NCBI GenBank assembly: GCA_021163925.1
Contig: JAGGTD010000022.1
Coordinates: 1 to 36,997 of the forward strand
Length of the DNA stretch: 36,997 nt
From: Nitrososphaerota archaeon
GTDB taxonomy: Archaea > Thermoproteota > Nitrososphaeria_A > Caldarchaeales > Wolframiiraptoraceae
Reading direction: 5' to 3'
Both the position numbers and the translations under genes were made by a program. This document shows, piece by piece, positions 2,767-36,801 of the stretch. Below the pieces are notes generated by a model. That model saw only the letters and a list, made by a program, of their open reading frames with translations, made no database searches and was not told where the DNA came from. Position 1 is the stretch's first letter; each line of letters begins with the position of its first letter.

Positions 2767-3159
2767 CTAATCCTTGCTGGGGGTAGATGGAGGTTTAGAA
2801 CTTTCTCCCGAGGCTTCAGAGTCCTTCTCCACTCTATGTCCTCTCCTGAGCCACTCATTCATCAAAGTATCATGCCATTCATCACTCTCCTCGATCACCT
2901 CATATTTTCCACTCTCCCTCGCAAGCCTCACGGCGATTAGATGATAGCAGGTGGGTTTCTCGCCGCTCATAACCCTGAAGAAGAAATCGCTACATGAACA
3001 GTATCCCGCTTCGGGTAGGATGAGGTAGTCTTGATGTCTTCCAACGACTATCCACCTCTTCCTACCGCTCGGCTTGAAGATGTAGAGCTTAACTCGTCCC
3101 TCTGAGACCGCTTCCTCAGCCTCTTCCATCAGCTTCTCATAATCCTTGCTCAAGCCCAT
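2767..3159 (-). CDS. SWIM zinc-finger protein
   Basis: The 130-residue protein carries a SWIM finger with C54, C56, C71 and H73 (CxC...CxH), preceded by a short beta-rich segment and followed by a charged, low-complexity tail. SWIM fingers bind zinc and mediate nucleic-acid or protein contacts; archaeal SWIM proteins have been linked to RecA-family paralogues in recombination, but nothing here proves that. It starts 24 nt after the stop of the phosphoesterase gene on the same strand, so the two are probably co-transcribed. The finger assignment is firm; the cellular role is not known. Confidence 0.85.
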   Translation of the reverse strand: MGLSKDYEKLMEEAEEAVSEGRVKLYIFKPSGRKRWIVVGRHQDYLILPEAGYCSCSDFFFRVMSGEKPTCYHLIAVRLARESGKYEVIEESDEWHDTLMNEWLRRGHRVEKDSEASGESSKPPSTPSKD

Positions 3160-5201: not shown

Positions 5202-5209
5202 CTTAAATA
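5202..5209 (+). promoter_or_regulatory. TATA box of the CBS/HPF-like gene
   Basis: CTTAAATA is centred 25 nt before ATG 5231, implying a leaderless transcript. Confidence 0.6.
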
Positions 5210-5230: not shown

Positions 5231-6349
5231 ATGAAGGAGATAGCGTTTCAACAAGTCTCGAAGATCATGAGAAAATCACCCCTAGTATACTCATCCATGG
5301 ACACGGTCTCAAAGCTCATAGGAGGACTTTATGAGACCGGCTCACGAGAAGCTTTAGTAGCCTATGAAGGGAGAATAGGTTTAGTGGCCTTAAGAGATCT
5401 GCTCGGAGTCTCACATCCAGAGCGCACGCTCATTAGAGATGTGGCGAGGAGCGTTCCATCACTATCCACCGAGGCAACGGTCTTAGACGCCGTCGAGTTG
5501 ATGATCTCGAATAAGATAAGAGCAGTTCCAGTGCTCTCGGGAGAAGATGTTTTGGGCATCGTCTCTGAGGTTGAGGTCATGAACGCTTTACCCGAATCCG
5601 AGGTCTTTGGTAAGATCCTATGTGAAGATGTGATGAGGGAGGTGGATGTCTCCATCGACATCAACGATAAGATCTCTACGGCCCGCAACCTCATGAGAAG
5701 ATACAGGGTCGATCATCTCATCGTTCTGGATAAGAGGGGATCGTTGAAGGGGGTGATCGCCGCGGAGAGCATAGTATTCAACTTCGTCCAGCCCAGGGAG
5801 AGGGTTACGAGAGGTGGGAGAGTTGGAGAGAGGAGAAGGCTCCTCGACATACCGGTCAAGGGCTTAATGGATAGAAGACCCCTAATCGCTGAGAGGCGAG
5901 ACCCACTTCTCGAAGTTGTGAAGGGATTTAAAGACTATGGAAGAGATCTATGCGTCGTTGAGGAGAACGCGAGACCTCTAGGAATAATTACATCGAGGGA
6001 GATAATACCGTTGATTCTCGGATTTAGAATGGAGGAGGAACTCCCCATCTACATCCTAGGCTTACCGGAGCTTGGAGACTTTCAAGAGATCAAAACCTCT
6101 CAAAATAAGGTTTTGAGAGTCTTTGAGAAATGGTCAGGGGAAGTTCTGGAAGTAATAATAGATGTGAAGAGGAGAAGGAGGAGAGGCGGAAGGACGCTAT
6201 ATCAAGTCACGGCGAGGATCTATTCACCGACCAAACGCCTCTCCGTGGCAGCTAAAGGCTGGTATCTCTCAGAAGCCTTCGATAATCTCTGTAGAAGGTT
6301 GGATAGGATTCTAGAGCGTATAAAGATCGACAAGAGAACCCGACTTTAA
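5231..6349 (+). CDS. four-CBS-domain protein with C-terminal HPF/S30AE-like domain, possible ribosome hibernation factor
   Basis: The 372-residue protein contains consecutive CBS motifs (about 8-60, 65-120, 130-190 and 205-260), each with the typical xAVPVL or GIVxxxE/D pattern; such modules bind adenine nucleotides. From about residue 272 to the end the sequence fits the beta-alpha-beta-beta-beta-alpha pattern of HPF/S30AE ribosome-binding proteins. This stretch includes a basic run (KRRRRRGG) and the ending AAKGWYLSEAFDNLCRRLDR, comparable to the AEGxDLYEAIDxALDxLE segment of that family. The combined design suggests binding to the small ribosomal subunit under control of ATP, ADP or AMP levels. 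The CBS assignment is firm; the HPF likeness is my reading of the pattern. Confidence 0.82.
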   Translation: MKEIAFQQVSKIMRKSPLVYSSMDTVSKLIGGLYETGSREALVAYEGRIGLVALRDLLGVSHPERTLIRDVARSVPSLSTEATVLDAVELMISNKIRAVPVLSGEDVLGIVSEVEVMNALPESEVFGKILCEDVMREVDVSIDINDKISTARNLMRRYRVDHLIVLDKRGSLKGVIAAESIVFNFVQPRERVTRGGRVGERRRLLDIPVKGLMDRRPLIAERRDPLLEVVKGFKDYGRDLCVVEENARPLGIITSREIIPLILGFRMEEELPIYILGLPELGDFQEIKTSQNKVLRVFEKWSGEVLEVIIDVKRRRRRGGRTLYQVTARIYSPTKRLSVAAKGWYLSEAFDNLCRRLDRILERIKIDKRTRL

Positions 6350-18562: not shown

Positions 18563-19018
18563 CTACGCCTCTGAGCTTGCGAGCCTCTCTTCGGCATCCT
18601 TAATCGTCTTCATGATATTCCTCCAATGGGAGCCCCTCCAATACCTCTTCCCACAGTTTGGGCATATCCACTCCTCTCTAGGCTTATCGTTCACGAGCTT
18701 CAGGGGGGAGTTGCAGACTGGGCACCTAGTCCTATTTCGATCAAATCTCAGCTTTATCCCATATCTCTTGGCCAGCTCTGCGAGAACCTCGGGCGAATCG
18801 TTCTTCGAGATGTAGAAAGTCTCTAGACCGTTTCTGATGGCGTTTAATGCAAGCTCCCTATCCATCGTTAAGATTATCCTATCCTCCTCTAGAGCCCTCT
18901 TGATTAATTCCCCGTCATCACCACTCCAATAAATTGTGTCGTATCCAAGTATTCTGAGCCAGGTCACGATGTTTCCGAGCATGGCATCGACTATGAACTT
19001 CTCCTCCAGCTCCCTCAT
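18563..19018 (-). CDS. Mut7-C RNase-like domain protein (PIN-like fold plus zinc ribbon)
   Basis: The 151-residue protein matches the Mut7-C family: FIVDAMLGNIVTWLRILGYD at the N-terminus with D11, TMDRELA with D53, then a zinc ribbon made by C99, C102, C119 and C122, and the closing RGSHWRNI. The family has a PIN-like nuclease fold and is presumed to act on RNA. Its ATG overlaps the TGA of the CBS/zinc-ribbon gene (ATGA, 19015-19018), so the two are translationally coupled. Confidence 0.92.
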   Translation of the reverse strand: MRELEEKFIVDAMLGNIVTWLRILGYDTIYWSGDDGELIKRALEEDRIILTMDRELALNAIRNGLETFYISKNDSPEVLAELAKRYGIKLRFDRNRTRCPVCNSPLKLVNDKPREEWICPNCGKRYWRGSHWRNIMKTIKDAEERLASSEA

Positions 19019-19599
19019 CCCCTTTCCTTCCTCTTCTCCCTCAATAGTTCAAGCCTGCAGTCCTCGCAGAGATATCTTCCCTCAACGTTTAGAAGCATGT
19101 CAGACCATTCTCCACAATTATCGCAGTATCCCTCAATATATCCCTCCTTGCTCCTCGGGAAGCTCACCCCCATTATCTTCATATTTTCTCTAACTATCTC
19201 TAGAATCTCTGGGGTTACTCGGAGTATGTCCTTTATGCTCACGAGCCCCGCCAATCTATTCTTGTAGATCACAGCGAGCCTATTCACCTTAAGCTTATTC
19301 ATCTTCCTCAAGGCGTCCTCGATCCTCGCATCGGGATCTATTGTCTGGAGAGGTGTGCTCATGATGTCCTTTAGCTTGACCTCATTTGGCTTGAGGTTCT
19401 TCGCGATAACCTTATTCACTAGATCCGTCTTGGTGACTATCCCAACAGGCTCACCTCTCTGGCCCGTGACTATTATCGCTCCAACCCCATACTTCATCAT
19501 CTTCTTCGCCGCATCCTCAGCGGTCTCATGCTCCTCCGCCTCGATCACGGGACTCGACATAACCTCCCTAACCAAGACCTCATCGGTGAGCTCCCTCAA
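19015..19599 (-). CDS. two-CBS-domain protein with C-terminal zinc ribbon
   Basis: Two CBS domains (about 8-65 and 72-130) are recognisable by VREVMSSPVIEAEEHETAEDA, GAIIVTGQRGEPVGIVTKTDL and LKDIMSTPLQTIDPDARIEDA. They are followed by a CDNC...CEDC zinc ribbon near 157-185. CBS pairs sense adenine nucleotides or S-adenosylmethionine; the ribbon suggests contact with nucleic acid or protein. It starts with TTG 19599, whose TTGA overlaps the stop of the small ORF upstream, and it ends overlapping the Mut7-C start. The whole run is probably one operon. Confidence 0.9.
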   Translation of the reverse strand: MRELTDEVLVREVMSSPVIEAEEHETAEDAAKKMMKYGVGAIIVTGQRGEPVGIVTKTDLVNKVIAKNLKPNEVKLKDIMSTPLQTIDPDARIEDALRKMNKLKVNRLAVIYKNRLAGLVSIKDILRVTPEILEIVRENMKIMGVSFPRSKEGYIEGYCDNCGEWSDMLLNVEGRYLCEDCRLELLREKRKERG

Positions 19600-20861: not shown

Positions 20862-22775
20862 CTAATCTTTGACTAACTCGCCCGAACCATATGGTATTAG
20901 CTCCATTATCCTTTCCTTCAAGAGGTTTAAGCTCCTCCTATCAAAACGCATATTCTCGGTTAATATCTTCACCGCTTCCTCAGCAAGCTCCGCGGACTTT
21001 CTCCTACCCGGCACAATCTTGACCAATCTCACAGCTCTTCCGGCTAATGCTTGGCTTGGGCCATAGATTAATTCGAGATCTTTGGTTAAGCCTATGGCGA
21101 GTTCGAGCCTTACGGTCATGTAATTTCTCTCACCCTTCACTATGAACCCTCCCCTCGGCAGATAATGGCCTGGCGGGGGTTTAAACGATATTTGATCTGC
21201 TTTGACATAGTATACAGTTATCTGGGACATCCTCTCACGCCAAGCTCTACTGTAGGTTGCCGCGAATTGAGCCGCTTCAACCCTAGATCTCTCTCCAGCT
21301 CTCAATCCATCCTTCAGGATAACGGCCGCCGCCCCCCTAACCTCTGCGTGGAAGATGAGGTCGCTTGGCTCGAGGTGTTTTTTCAATAATGATATATTGC
21401 TTGAGGCATCTTTACCAGCCACGGCCAAGAATCCCTCCGATGTGATAAACCATCTATATCGCTCATACCATCTCCTCGGAGACGGCCTTAACTTCGCAGA
21501 AACCTTTAGGAGAACTTCCTCGATCTCCTCAGTCTCCCGCCTCCTCAATTTATCGATCTTGGACTCTATCTCCTCGGCCTCCCTCAATAATCTCTCAGCA
21601 GCCTCCATAGACTTCTTCGCATCATTGAATAGGTTTGAGATCTGCTTCATCAAGGACTCATCGGTCTTTAGGGTTAGGGTCTCTTCATCGACGCTGATCT
21701 TCATCTCCCTTCTACGGCTACTTACCTCAACCTTTAACTCATCGACCTCGTGAATTCCATCGATCTCCTTAACTTCTTCCAGTCTTGAGTGTAATTTGAA
21801 GAGTTTTTGAGCCAGTTCTCTCAGCCTCTTCGACCTCGTGATGAGTTTATTCGCGATAAACCTCTTTTCATCCAACTTCTCCTTAAGCTCCTGGATCTTA
21901 TCCTCCATCTCTCTCCTCCTCTCCTCTTCAACCCTCAAAGCGAGTTCATGTTCATAGGATTCTCGAAAGGCTTGATTCAAGTTATCGACATCTTTAAAGC
22001 TATAGCCCCTCGACTTGAAGATCTCCATCCGATATGGGAGAGGTTGGGGAGCCTCGCCTGGGAGCTGGGCCAACGTAGGCCTTCCAGCCTCGATTAGATG
22101 TAAAACTTTTTTGAACGCCTCTATGATTCTCGCCTTCTGCTCCTCGTCGAGATCCTTCACCTTAACCCCCTTATCGACCCCAGCCAGATAGAGTATCTCC
22201 TCAGCATACCTCCCTCCTAAGCCAGCCTTAGACGCCAGCTCGGAGACGATCTTCCTATTCGGATCTAATGTTCTGAATATCTCCTCTAAACTCGTCTCCG
22301 CTATGGATGGCCTTGGAGGTGGAAGCCTATACATCTCCCCCGGAGCTATCACCCTATCCCTCATCCTTAGGTGGTGGAGCGACTCGATTATCCTACCATC
22401 CTGGTCAACTATTATTAATGTGCCCTTTGGCAAGAACTCGGAGATAAGCTTGAAAGTCTTCCCACCCTTCTCAAGCTCCATAACCATTACCCTCTCACCC
22501 TCCACGAGCCTTAGATCGCGTATCCTCGAACCCGAGACCAATCTTCTAAGAATCCTACCCCTCTCACTAAGCTTGGTGGGCTTCTCATAGCTTCCCTCAA
22601 CTAGGTAAAAGAATCTTCCCGGAACTATCCTGAGCTCTCCTGAGAAGTTCTCGGATCTAAGCTTCAATATTATTGAGCCATCGTCCATATGGTAGAGATT
22701 TATTATCCTCGATCCTCGGATAGTGCTTGAGACCTCTTTGAGCAGCCTCTTAAGCTCAAGGTATGAGGCCGACAT
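20862..22775 (-). CDS. rqcH: ribosome quality control protein RqcH/NEMF (NFACT family)
   Basis: The 637-residue protein has the full NFACT layout. The NFACT-N domain (about 1-190) includes NLYHMDDGSIILKLR and PGRFFYL. A helix-hairpin-helix-like segment follows (KAGLGGRYAEEILYLAGVDKG). A long coiled coil spans about 285-430 with many E/K/R heptads. The NFACT-R domain (about 440-560) includes WYERYRWFITSEGFLAVAGKDASSN and HAEVRGAAAVILK. Homologues bind obstructed large ribosomal subunits with peptidyl-tRNA and extend or flag the nascent chain for degradation. Length is normal. Confidence 0.94.
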   Translation of the reverse strand: MSASYLELKRLLKEVSSTIRGSRIINLYHMDDGSIILKLRSENFSGELRIVPGRFFYLVEGSYEKPTKLSERGRILRRLVSGSRIRDLRLVEGERVMVMELEKGGKTFKLISEFLPKGTLIIVDQDGRIIESLHHLRMRDRVIAPGEMYRLPPPRPSIAETSLEEIFRTLDPNRKIVSELASKAGLGGRYAEEILYLAGVDKGVKVKDLDEEQKARIIEAFKKVLHLIEAGRPTLAQLPGEAPQPLPYRMEIFKSRGYSFKDVDNLNQAFRESYEHELALRVEEERRREMEDKIQELKEKLDEKRFIANKLITRSKRLRELAQKLFKLHSRLEEVKEIDGIHEVDELKVEVSSRRREMKISVDEETLTLKTDESLMKQISNLFNDAKKSMEAAERLLREAEEIESKIDKLRRRETEEIEEVLLKVSAKLRPSPRRWYERYRWFITSEGFLAVAGKDASSNISLLKKHLEPSDLIFHAEVRGAAAVILKDGLRAGERSRVEAAQFAATYSRAWRERMSQITVYYVKADQISFKPPPGHYLPRGGFIVKGERNYMTVRLELAIGLTKDLELIYGPSQALAGRAVRLVKIVPGRRKSAELAEEAVKILTENMRFDRRSLNLLKERIMELIPYGSGELVKD

Positions 22776-35662: not shown

Positions 35663-36079
35663 TTACTTCCTTTCTTCGATAAGTTCTCTGGCTAGTTGGT
35701 AGACTTGCTTTGCGTTTCTTAGGGCTTCTTCCGCCTCCCTTTCTCCGAACAATTCTCCCGGCGTTTTTCCCGCCGCCTCTATTCCATACATGCTTGGCGA
35801 CCTTTTCTCCGCTAGATCTCTTGAGATCCCTGCAAGCCTTCCTATATGCTCTCTGAACCATTCCGGGAATCTAGCGCTCTCTGCTTCTAGGACACCTCCC
35901 ACATCGTGAACTTTCGGGTATTCTATTCCCACCATTCTTAGGCATGCTTTTAGGGAGAGCTCGACGCATTCCTGCGAGTATCTGACCGCCTCGGGGTAAT
36001 ATCCTCGTTTGAAGGCTTCTTCCGCTATCACAAGCCTCGCCTCAGCTCTCTTCAAGTAGTCTCTTGCTAAGGCTTCCAT
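35663..36079 (-). CDS. HEPN-domain protein paired with MNT nucleotidyltransferase
   Basis: The 138-residue helical protein has the HEPN pattern: YLKRAEARLVIAEEAFKRGYYPEAVRYSQECVELSLKACL, then PKVHDVGGVL and a helical end. The R-x4-6-H RNase motif of HepT toxins is not found: the expected region reads ISRDLAEKRSPSMYG. The family usually works with an MNT nucleotidyltransferase, and here it starts two bases after that gene's stop on the same strand. It may be a non-catalytic partner or substrate of the nucleotidyltransferase. Confidence 0.88.
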   Translation of the reverse strand: MEALARDYLKRAEARLVIAEEAFKRGYYPEAVRYSQECVELSLKACLRMVGIEYPKVHDVGGVLEAESARFPEWFREHIGRLAGISRDLAEKRSPSMYGIEAAGKTPGELFGEREAEEALRNAKQVYQLARELIEERK

Positions 36080-36081
36080 TC

Positions 36082-36801
36082 TCAGACCTCTATCACCTCT
36101 CCGGCTTTAGCGTCTGGTTTGACTATCCAATACCATGATCCATTGGGGAGGAGCACCTTTCTCGATCTAAGCTTCCTTAACCTATCCTTAAGTCCCTCCA
36201 GAACCTTCTCCATGAACCCATCCTTGTCGTAGATTATTATCGAGTTTTCTAGGAGGTCTAGGTAGAATGGCTGGATCTTTGATGCCTCTTCTGGTGTTAG
36301 TATTATTGGGTCTATGAGTGGGTAGATCTTCTTCTCCCTCCATAGCTTGATGGCCTCCTCCTCTACCCCCGCCGTCATCTTCCTAAGTAGCTTTAATCTC
36401 TCCGAGTAGTTTTCTGGTAGATTTTCCGCTACTATCAGTAGGTCTATGTCGCTCTCCGGCCTCATCCTGCCCGATGCTATCGATCCAAATAGGATTAACG
36501 ACCTGAGTTTTTCTCCGAATCCCTCTATGAGCTTAACCACAAGCCTCTCGAGTAGTGGCAGGTATTCTGTCCTGCTTATCCTGCTCCTCCACCTATATCC
36601 AGCCCACTCCATGGCCATGATCACCGGGTGAATCGCCCTGAAGACTCCCCTGGAGACCCTGACTATATAGCCGGCCTTCCATAGCCTGTGTAGGACGAGG
36701 TAGGGGTTCTCACTCTTTAGGAGCTTGCATGCCTCGCGCGCCTCAAACTCCCTTAACCCGAAGCTGAGTAAGAGTTTTCCGTAGAGGGCCTTCAGGGACA
36801 T
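36082..36801 (-). CDS. winged-helix/MNT-type nucleotidyltransferase fusion protein
   Basis: The 239-residue protein has an N-terminal winged-helix-like part (about 10-65, EAREACKLLKSENPYLVLHRLWKAGYIVRVSRGVFR). A minimal nucleotidyltransferase domain follows, with GSIASGRMRPESDIDLLIV (106-124; G106, S107, D118, D120) and a third acidic residue in PLIDPIIL (D164). MNT antitoxins of the MNT/HEPN type add AMP to their HEPN partner; the catalytic residues here are complete. The DNA-binding-like N-terminus suggests control of its own promoter. A TATA-like AATATATT lies upstream near 36830-36838. Confidence 0.87.
   Translation of the reverse strand: MSLKALYGKLLLSFGLREFEAREACKLLKSENPYLVLHRLWKAGYIVRVSRGVFRAIHPVIMAMEWAGYRWRSRISRTEYLPLLERLVVKLIEGFGEKLRSLILFGSIASGRMRPESDIDLLIVAENLPENYSERLKLLRKMTAGVEEEAIKLWREKKIYPLIDPIILTPEEASKIQPFYLDLLENSIIIYDKDGFMEKVLEGLKDRLRKLRSRKVLLPNGSWYWIVKPDAKAGEVIEV

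Follow-up and report, generated by a model that had tools for sequence, protein, structure and literature searches.

A probable HibA-type ribosome-hibernation factor of a divergent clade, with four CBS domains and an HPF-like domain, in a Caldarchaeales (archaeal) genome

The hibernation factor HibA, described in April 2026 by structures, by its inhibition of translation and by a knockout, consists of four CBS domains and an HPF/RaiA domain (Madru et al. 2026, PMC13324472). Binding to the 30S mRNA channel and to the 50S subunit, inhibition of translation and preservation of 70S ribosomes were reported using Pyrococcus abyssi and Thermococcus barophilus: the C-terminal domain lies in the mRNA/tRNA channel of the 30S subunit, the CBS module is seen at three positions on the 50S subunit, translation is inhibited in vitro, and T. 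barophilus deleted for the gene resumes growth late and has fewer 70S ribosomes (PMC13324472). Loop 190-207 of P. abyssi HibA, a long loop of the third CBS domain, enters the peptidyl-transferase centre, and its CBS module binds AMP (Kd 12 uM), ADP and ATP at a site mapped between CBS3 and CBS4; AMP and ATP did not change ribosome binding appreciably, ATP merely adding a weakly populated state (PMC13324472). Dri of Pyrobaculum calidifontis (PDB 9e6q/9e7f) is also a CBS-module ribosome hibernation factor of Thermoproteota, which has two CBS modules but lacks an HPF domain, whereas the protein described here has a single four-CBS module. SriA-D of Methanosarcina acetivorans (PDB 9znf, 9zng, 9zni) are ribosome-bound CBS-module proteins; their likeness to our protein is limited to the CBS module, and their chains of 270-339 residues are too short for an HPF domain of the HibA kind.

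The window, meaning the whole stretch of 36,997 nucleotides analysed, is one of the 78 contigs of a 1.1 Mb assembly that is 81% complete. The initial annotation placed four CBS domains with an HPF/S30AE-like tail at 5231-6349, and the open reading frame there is exact: on the forward strand, with an ATG start, it encodes 372 amino acids. The features of the gene are as follows.

5202..5209, +, possible TATA box CTTAAATA, from sequence reading only, 22-29 bases 5' of the ATG
5231..6349, +, probable HibA-family gene with four CBS domains and an HPF/S30AE-like C-terminal domain (ORF, Pfam, PDB match 9sr9_H, dN/dS 0.145)
5246..5410, +, CBS1, approximately residues 6-60, borders approximate (fourth Pfam CBS stretch, secondary structure, alignment)
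5432..5593, +, CBS2, motif position Glu115 (PF00571 match, alignment)
5624..5776, +, CBS3, with Ser180 at the motif position where canonical HibA has Asp (PF00571 match, alignment)
5795..5848, +, equivalent of the HibA peptidyl-transferase-centre (PTC) loop, residues 189-206, RERVTRGGRVGERRRLLD (alignment; low model confidence at 188-201)
5855..6016, +, CBS4, with Glu257 at the motif position where canonical HibA has Asp (PF00571 match, alignment)
6044..6346, +, C-terminal HPF/S30AE-like domain (AlphaFold2, profile matches to bacterial HPF, Pfam/NCBIfam, reversed control)

Pfam detected the four CBS stretches (PF00571, E 4.9e-27) and, at E<=10, no family besides CBS in the whole protein. In the alignment, the TxxD motif of CBS1 reads AxxD in the window protein, with Asp56 kept. 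The position of the possible TATA box is consistent with a leaderless transcript. Measured against the same-genus orthologue, the gene is under purifying selection, with dN/dS of 0.145 overall and 0.17 in the C-terminal domain. In the 81% complete assembly neither a second four-CBS protein nor a second S30AE protein was detected, and a gene with an SBDS_N domain (aSBDS type) is present. The TyrRS gene lying upstream is conserved within the genus but is found beside the gene neither in Wolframiiraptor nor in the other relative examined, so that synteny is uninformative on function.

The C-terminal residues had been said to follow the HPF secondary-structure pattern, and the AlphaFold2 model (14 sequences used, pLDDT 82.5, pTM 0.63) agrees with this, predicting the order strand, helix, three strands, helix within residues 273-371 (E273-276, H284-299, E307-318, E321-331, E336-343, H346-371). 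The identical order is predicted for the C-terminal domain of the Nitrosotalea homologue. As judged from the sequence searches, the HPF signal is weak in the single window sequence and clear at the family level. With the single sequence, TIGR00741 (yfiA) gave E 0.019 for the whole protein and E 0.0021 for the domain alone, and Pfam S30AE (PF02482) gave E 0.083 for the domain, all below the curated cut-offs (18.5 vs 40.9 bits for TIGR00741; 14.1 vs 23.7 bits for PF02482). PF02482 found nothing in the window's own genome because the window domain lies below the reach of that model. At the family level, 13 of 19 homologous C-terminal domains matched PF02482, the best at 1.5e-7. A profile of eight such domains, from which the CBS part was excluded, returned bacterial HPF/YfiA as its first ten PDB matches (best E 0.004); the same eight sequences reversed retrieved no HPF/YfiA from the PDB and one unrelated match (E 0.63). 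With 19 domains in the profile, HPF/YfiA-type chains made up 17 of the best 19 PDB matches and 19 of the 25 matches at E<=10 (best E 7e-4). An HPF fold is predicted for the C-terminal domain, and its sequence signal at the family level is well above chance. The domain resembles bacterial HPF/RaiA (YfiA; S30AE, PF02482, TIGR00741) in predicted fold and sequence signal, in register, and it is basic (23 K+R vs 14 D+E); unlike the window protein, the bacterial HPF/YfiA chains matched have no CBS module. Where HibA has its two archaeal-specific HPF insertions (beta13-alpha11 and beta14-beta15), the window protein is close to P. abyssi in length, but the hairpin also aligns gaplessly to S. aureus HPF. 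When Foldseek was run with the full-length model, the listed matches were exclusively CBS modules, with the SriA/SriB entry at the top, and the CBS module of the model resembles AMPK-gamma-type and archaeal four-CBS structures.

We took PDB 9sr9 chain H as P. abyssi HibA, based on its 392 amino acids, its architecture and residues matching the publication (PMC13324472). This chain was the first PDB match of the single window sequence (phmmer, E 4.5e-19), and the window-family profile aligned to it in a single stretch (E 4.9e-39, profile 11-382, chain 5-386), with the next CBS protein 34 bits lower. Homology to HibA over the full length is established, and by these searches P. abyssi HibA appears to be the closest solved protein. 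The two share the order of four CBS domains followed by the C-terminal HPF/RaiA domain, with an 18-residue loop in the same place. The initial proposal of a candidate ribosome hibernation factor is thus consistent with the phmmer and family-profile matches to the HibA family (PMC13324472), and the window gene is very probably a divergent member of that family.

The window's order contains two types, a canonical one and the window type. A full-length profile of the canonical type gave E 4.7e-91 against the P. abyssi chain. The window-type C-terminal domain profile did not retrieve the canonical HibA chains from the PDB, the canonical profile did not retrieve bacterial HPF, and the profile-to-profile comparison of the two types of C-terminal domain was weak (E 0.024, probability 2%). 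In the window's order, canonical C-terminal domains have HFKEHKEKHG...LIHCRA plus a C-terminal tail, and window-type domains have neither; the canonical tail (YPYxxExL...) is missing from the window protein itself. The motif TxGxxxGE is common to canonical HibA and the window's own subclade in the alignment. Compared with P. abyssi HibA, the window protein lies in a separate clade, has an HPF domain nearer in sequence to bacterial HPF, lacks the tail and has the CBS3 and CBS4 motif aspartates replaced.

CBS-module trees were used to place the two types. The P. abyssi and Haloferax rows came from HMMER alignments and were slightly short of full length, 9l96 being a halophilic HibA-like chain that we take to be the Haloferax protein; the other CBS modules were sampled from Thermoproteota only. 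In a 54-row tree, the window type (100/98) and the canonical type including P. abyssi and Haloferax (98/92) grouped together with 93/94 against 16 other CBS-module proteins. In a 64-row tree to which a Dri-like protein was added, both clades hold (window type 98/97, canonical 94/94), and membership of the window protein in its clade is established; the Dri-like protein (627 aa) falls outside it. The joint clade was not recovered with 64 rows; both types branch from an unresolved fork, along with two divergent proteins and two stand-alone modules. Under an independent fusion, the window-type CBS-HPF proteins would be convergent hibernation factors and not HibA orthologues, with a bacterial-like HPF that was perhaps acquired separately. 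This would account for the loss of the joint clade with more rows, the two stand-alone modules beside both types and the closeness of window-type C-terminal domains to bacterial HPF in profile searches. We consider it unlikely, since a single clade of all HibA-like rows was not rejected (p-AU 0.37) and was recovered with fewer rows, the loop length is common to both types, TxGxxxGE is also present in the window's own subclade, and the full-length profile alignment to P. abyssi HibA is uninterrupted. One CBS-HPF fusion for both types is favoured but not proven.

The PTC loop equivalent has 18 residues, seven of them arginines, with a net charge of +4, and its length is shared by every window-type sequence in the alignment and, Haloferax excepted, by every canonical one. 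The low confidence of the model at 188-201 is consistent with a flexible loop. In the CBS motif G-h-h-T/S-x-x-D, the last residue contacts ribose. At CBS3 and CBS4 this residue is Asp in P. abyssi and nearly all canonical sequences aligned, whereas the window protein has Ser180 and Glu257 and the same-genus relative Asn and Glu. At CBS4, Glu is invariant among the seven sequences of the window's own subclade, and the ammonia-oxidiser sequences keep Asp there. From the alignment, the nucleotide site of the window protein looks altered. The initial annotation also had the gene coupling adenylate charge to ribosome silencing. Such a factor, with ribosome binding switched through AMP/ATP sensing by the CBS module, would be in keeping with four CBS domains of AMPK-gamma-like fold and with the AMP binding of the P. 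abyssi module, but the ribosome binding of HibA is largely unaffected by AMP/ATP (PMC13324472) and the replaced aspartates also argue against it, making this reading very improbable. Energy sensing by the window protein is not supported. Because AMP and ATP barely affect P. abyssi HibA, the better working model would be that protein level, or competition with mRNA/tRNA, governs the occupation of idle ribosomes. Having a nucleotide site that looks altered, the window protein would offer a naturally occurring variant in which to ask if adenylate binding matters to HibA.

At E<=1e-6, the C-terminal domain profiles of the two types picked different genes. In the window's order, the canonical type was found in 23/44 genomes and the window type in 4/44. 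Across the 349 Thermoproteota genomes sampled, 81 had the window type, 49 the canonical type and one (G020) both; as G020 is a 76%-complete MAG, its double occurrence is possibly a mixing of two organisms. That the two types almost never co-occur is expected if they are alternative versions of one function. AmoA-bearing genomes carry the window type, as a query from one of them matched 72 of the 151 genomes of family f7, and relatives named Nitrosotalea and Nitrosopumilaceae carry window-type proteins. Genus g39 of the same family has mostly stand-alone window-type HPF versions of 112-134 aa. The recently described hibernation family would extend to a divergent clade, more frequent than the canonical type among the sampled Thermoproteota genomes, which takes in Caldarchaeales MAGs and AmoA-bearing (ammonia-oxidising) archaea. 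We found no experimental work on any member of the window-type clade. The HibA paper reports a gap for Nitrosopumilaceae and also stand-alone HPF/RaiA-like proteins in Nitrososphaerales (PMC13324472), and we do not claim that the window-type clade fills this gap. A broader proposal is that the window type is a second, independently fused Thermoproteota CBS-HPF class with a bacterial-like HPF, lacking adenylate sensing in the window's own lineage, acting as the main HPF-type hibernation factor of the phylum and giving rise to the stand-alone HPFs of ammonia-oxidising archaea; we regard this as unlikely, to about the same degree as the independent fusion itself.

In four single-contig genomes of g39 (L090-L093), a CBS-domain ORF adjoins the stand-alone window-type HPF gene on the opposite strand. 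A full-length fused gene (L080, in G046) is likewise adjoined by a four-CBS gene on the opposite strand. These arrangements suggest either that the CBS part was lost in place or that the CBS gene is a conserved functional neighbour. In family f45, the genome G346 (2.8 Mb in a single contig) has two window-type HibA-like paralogues (L094 and L095).

The existence of stand-alone HPF-like relatives of 112-134 aa also bears on the possibility that the window protein is a regulatory CBS protein acting off ribosomes, for example an HhpR-like transcription regulator or a regulator of an enzyme, whose HPF-like tail has degenerated. CBS modules have many different functions, and the window protein has a weak similarity to HhpR (NCBIfam). 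This reading is nevertheless highly improbable, given those relatives and a C-terminal domain that is basic, constrained at dN/dS 0.17 and has kept the HPF fold. The window gene product most likely serves to park idle ribosomes during stress. By homology to HibA, we infer ribosome binding, translation block and ribosome preservation: the C-terminal HPF domain would bind within the mRNA/tRNA channel of the 30S subunit, the tethered N-terminal four-CBS module would fill vacant sites on the 50S subunit, and its 18-residue loop may be able to reach the peptidyl-transferase centre. Both parts together would hold an inactive 70S ribosome, shielded from nucleases until growth resumes. Of the initial interpretation, the CBS-HPF hibernation candidate stands and the adenylate coupling is unsupported; the idea of a CBS and HPF hibernation factor is largely published already as HibA (PMC13324472), and the novelty of the window protein is modest.

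Other genes in the window were also noted. A 130-aa protein at 2767-3159 (-) has a SWIM-like CxC...CxH motif, is kept in the same-genus relative and has no Pfam match at E<=1e-5. At 35663-36801 (-), genes for a HEPN-like protein (138 aa) and a nucleotidyltransferase-like protein (239 aa) are adjacent, by eye an arrangement typical of toxin-antitoxin pairs. The gene at 19015-19599 (-) encodes two CBS domains (Pfam) followed by a zinc-ribbon-like CxxC...CxxC tail and adjoins a Mut7-C RNase gene (18563-19018). A 637-aa protein encoded at 20862-22775 (-), roughly 15 kb away from the probable HibA-family gene, resembles by eye the NEMF/Rqc2 (NFACT) ribosome quality-control family.
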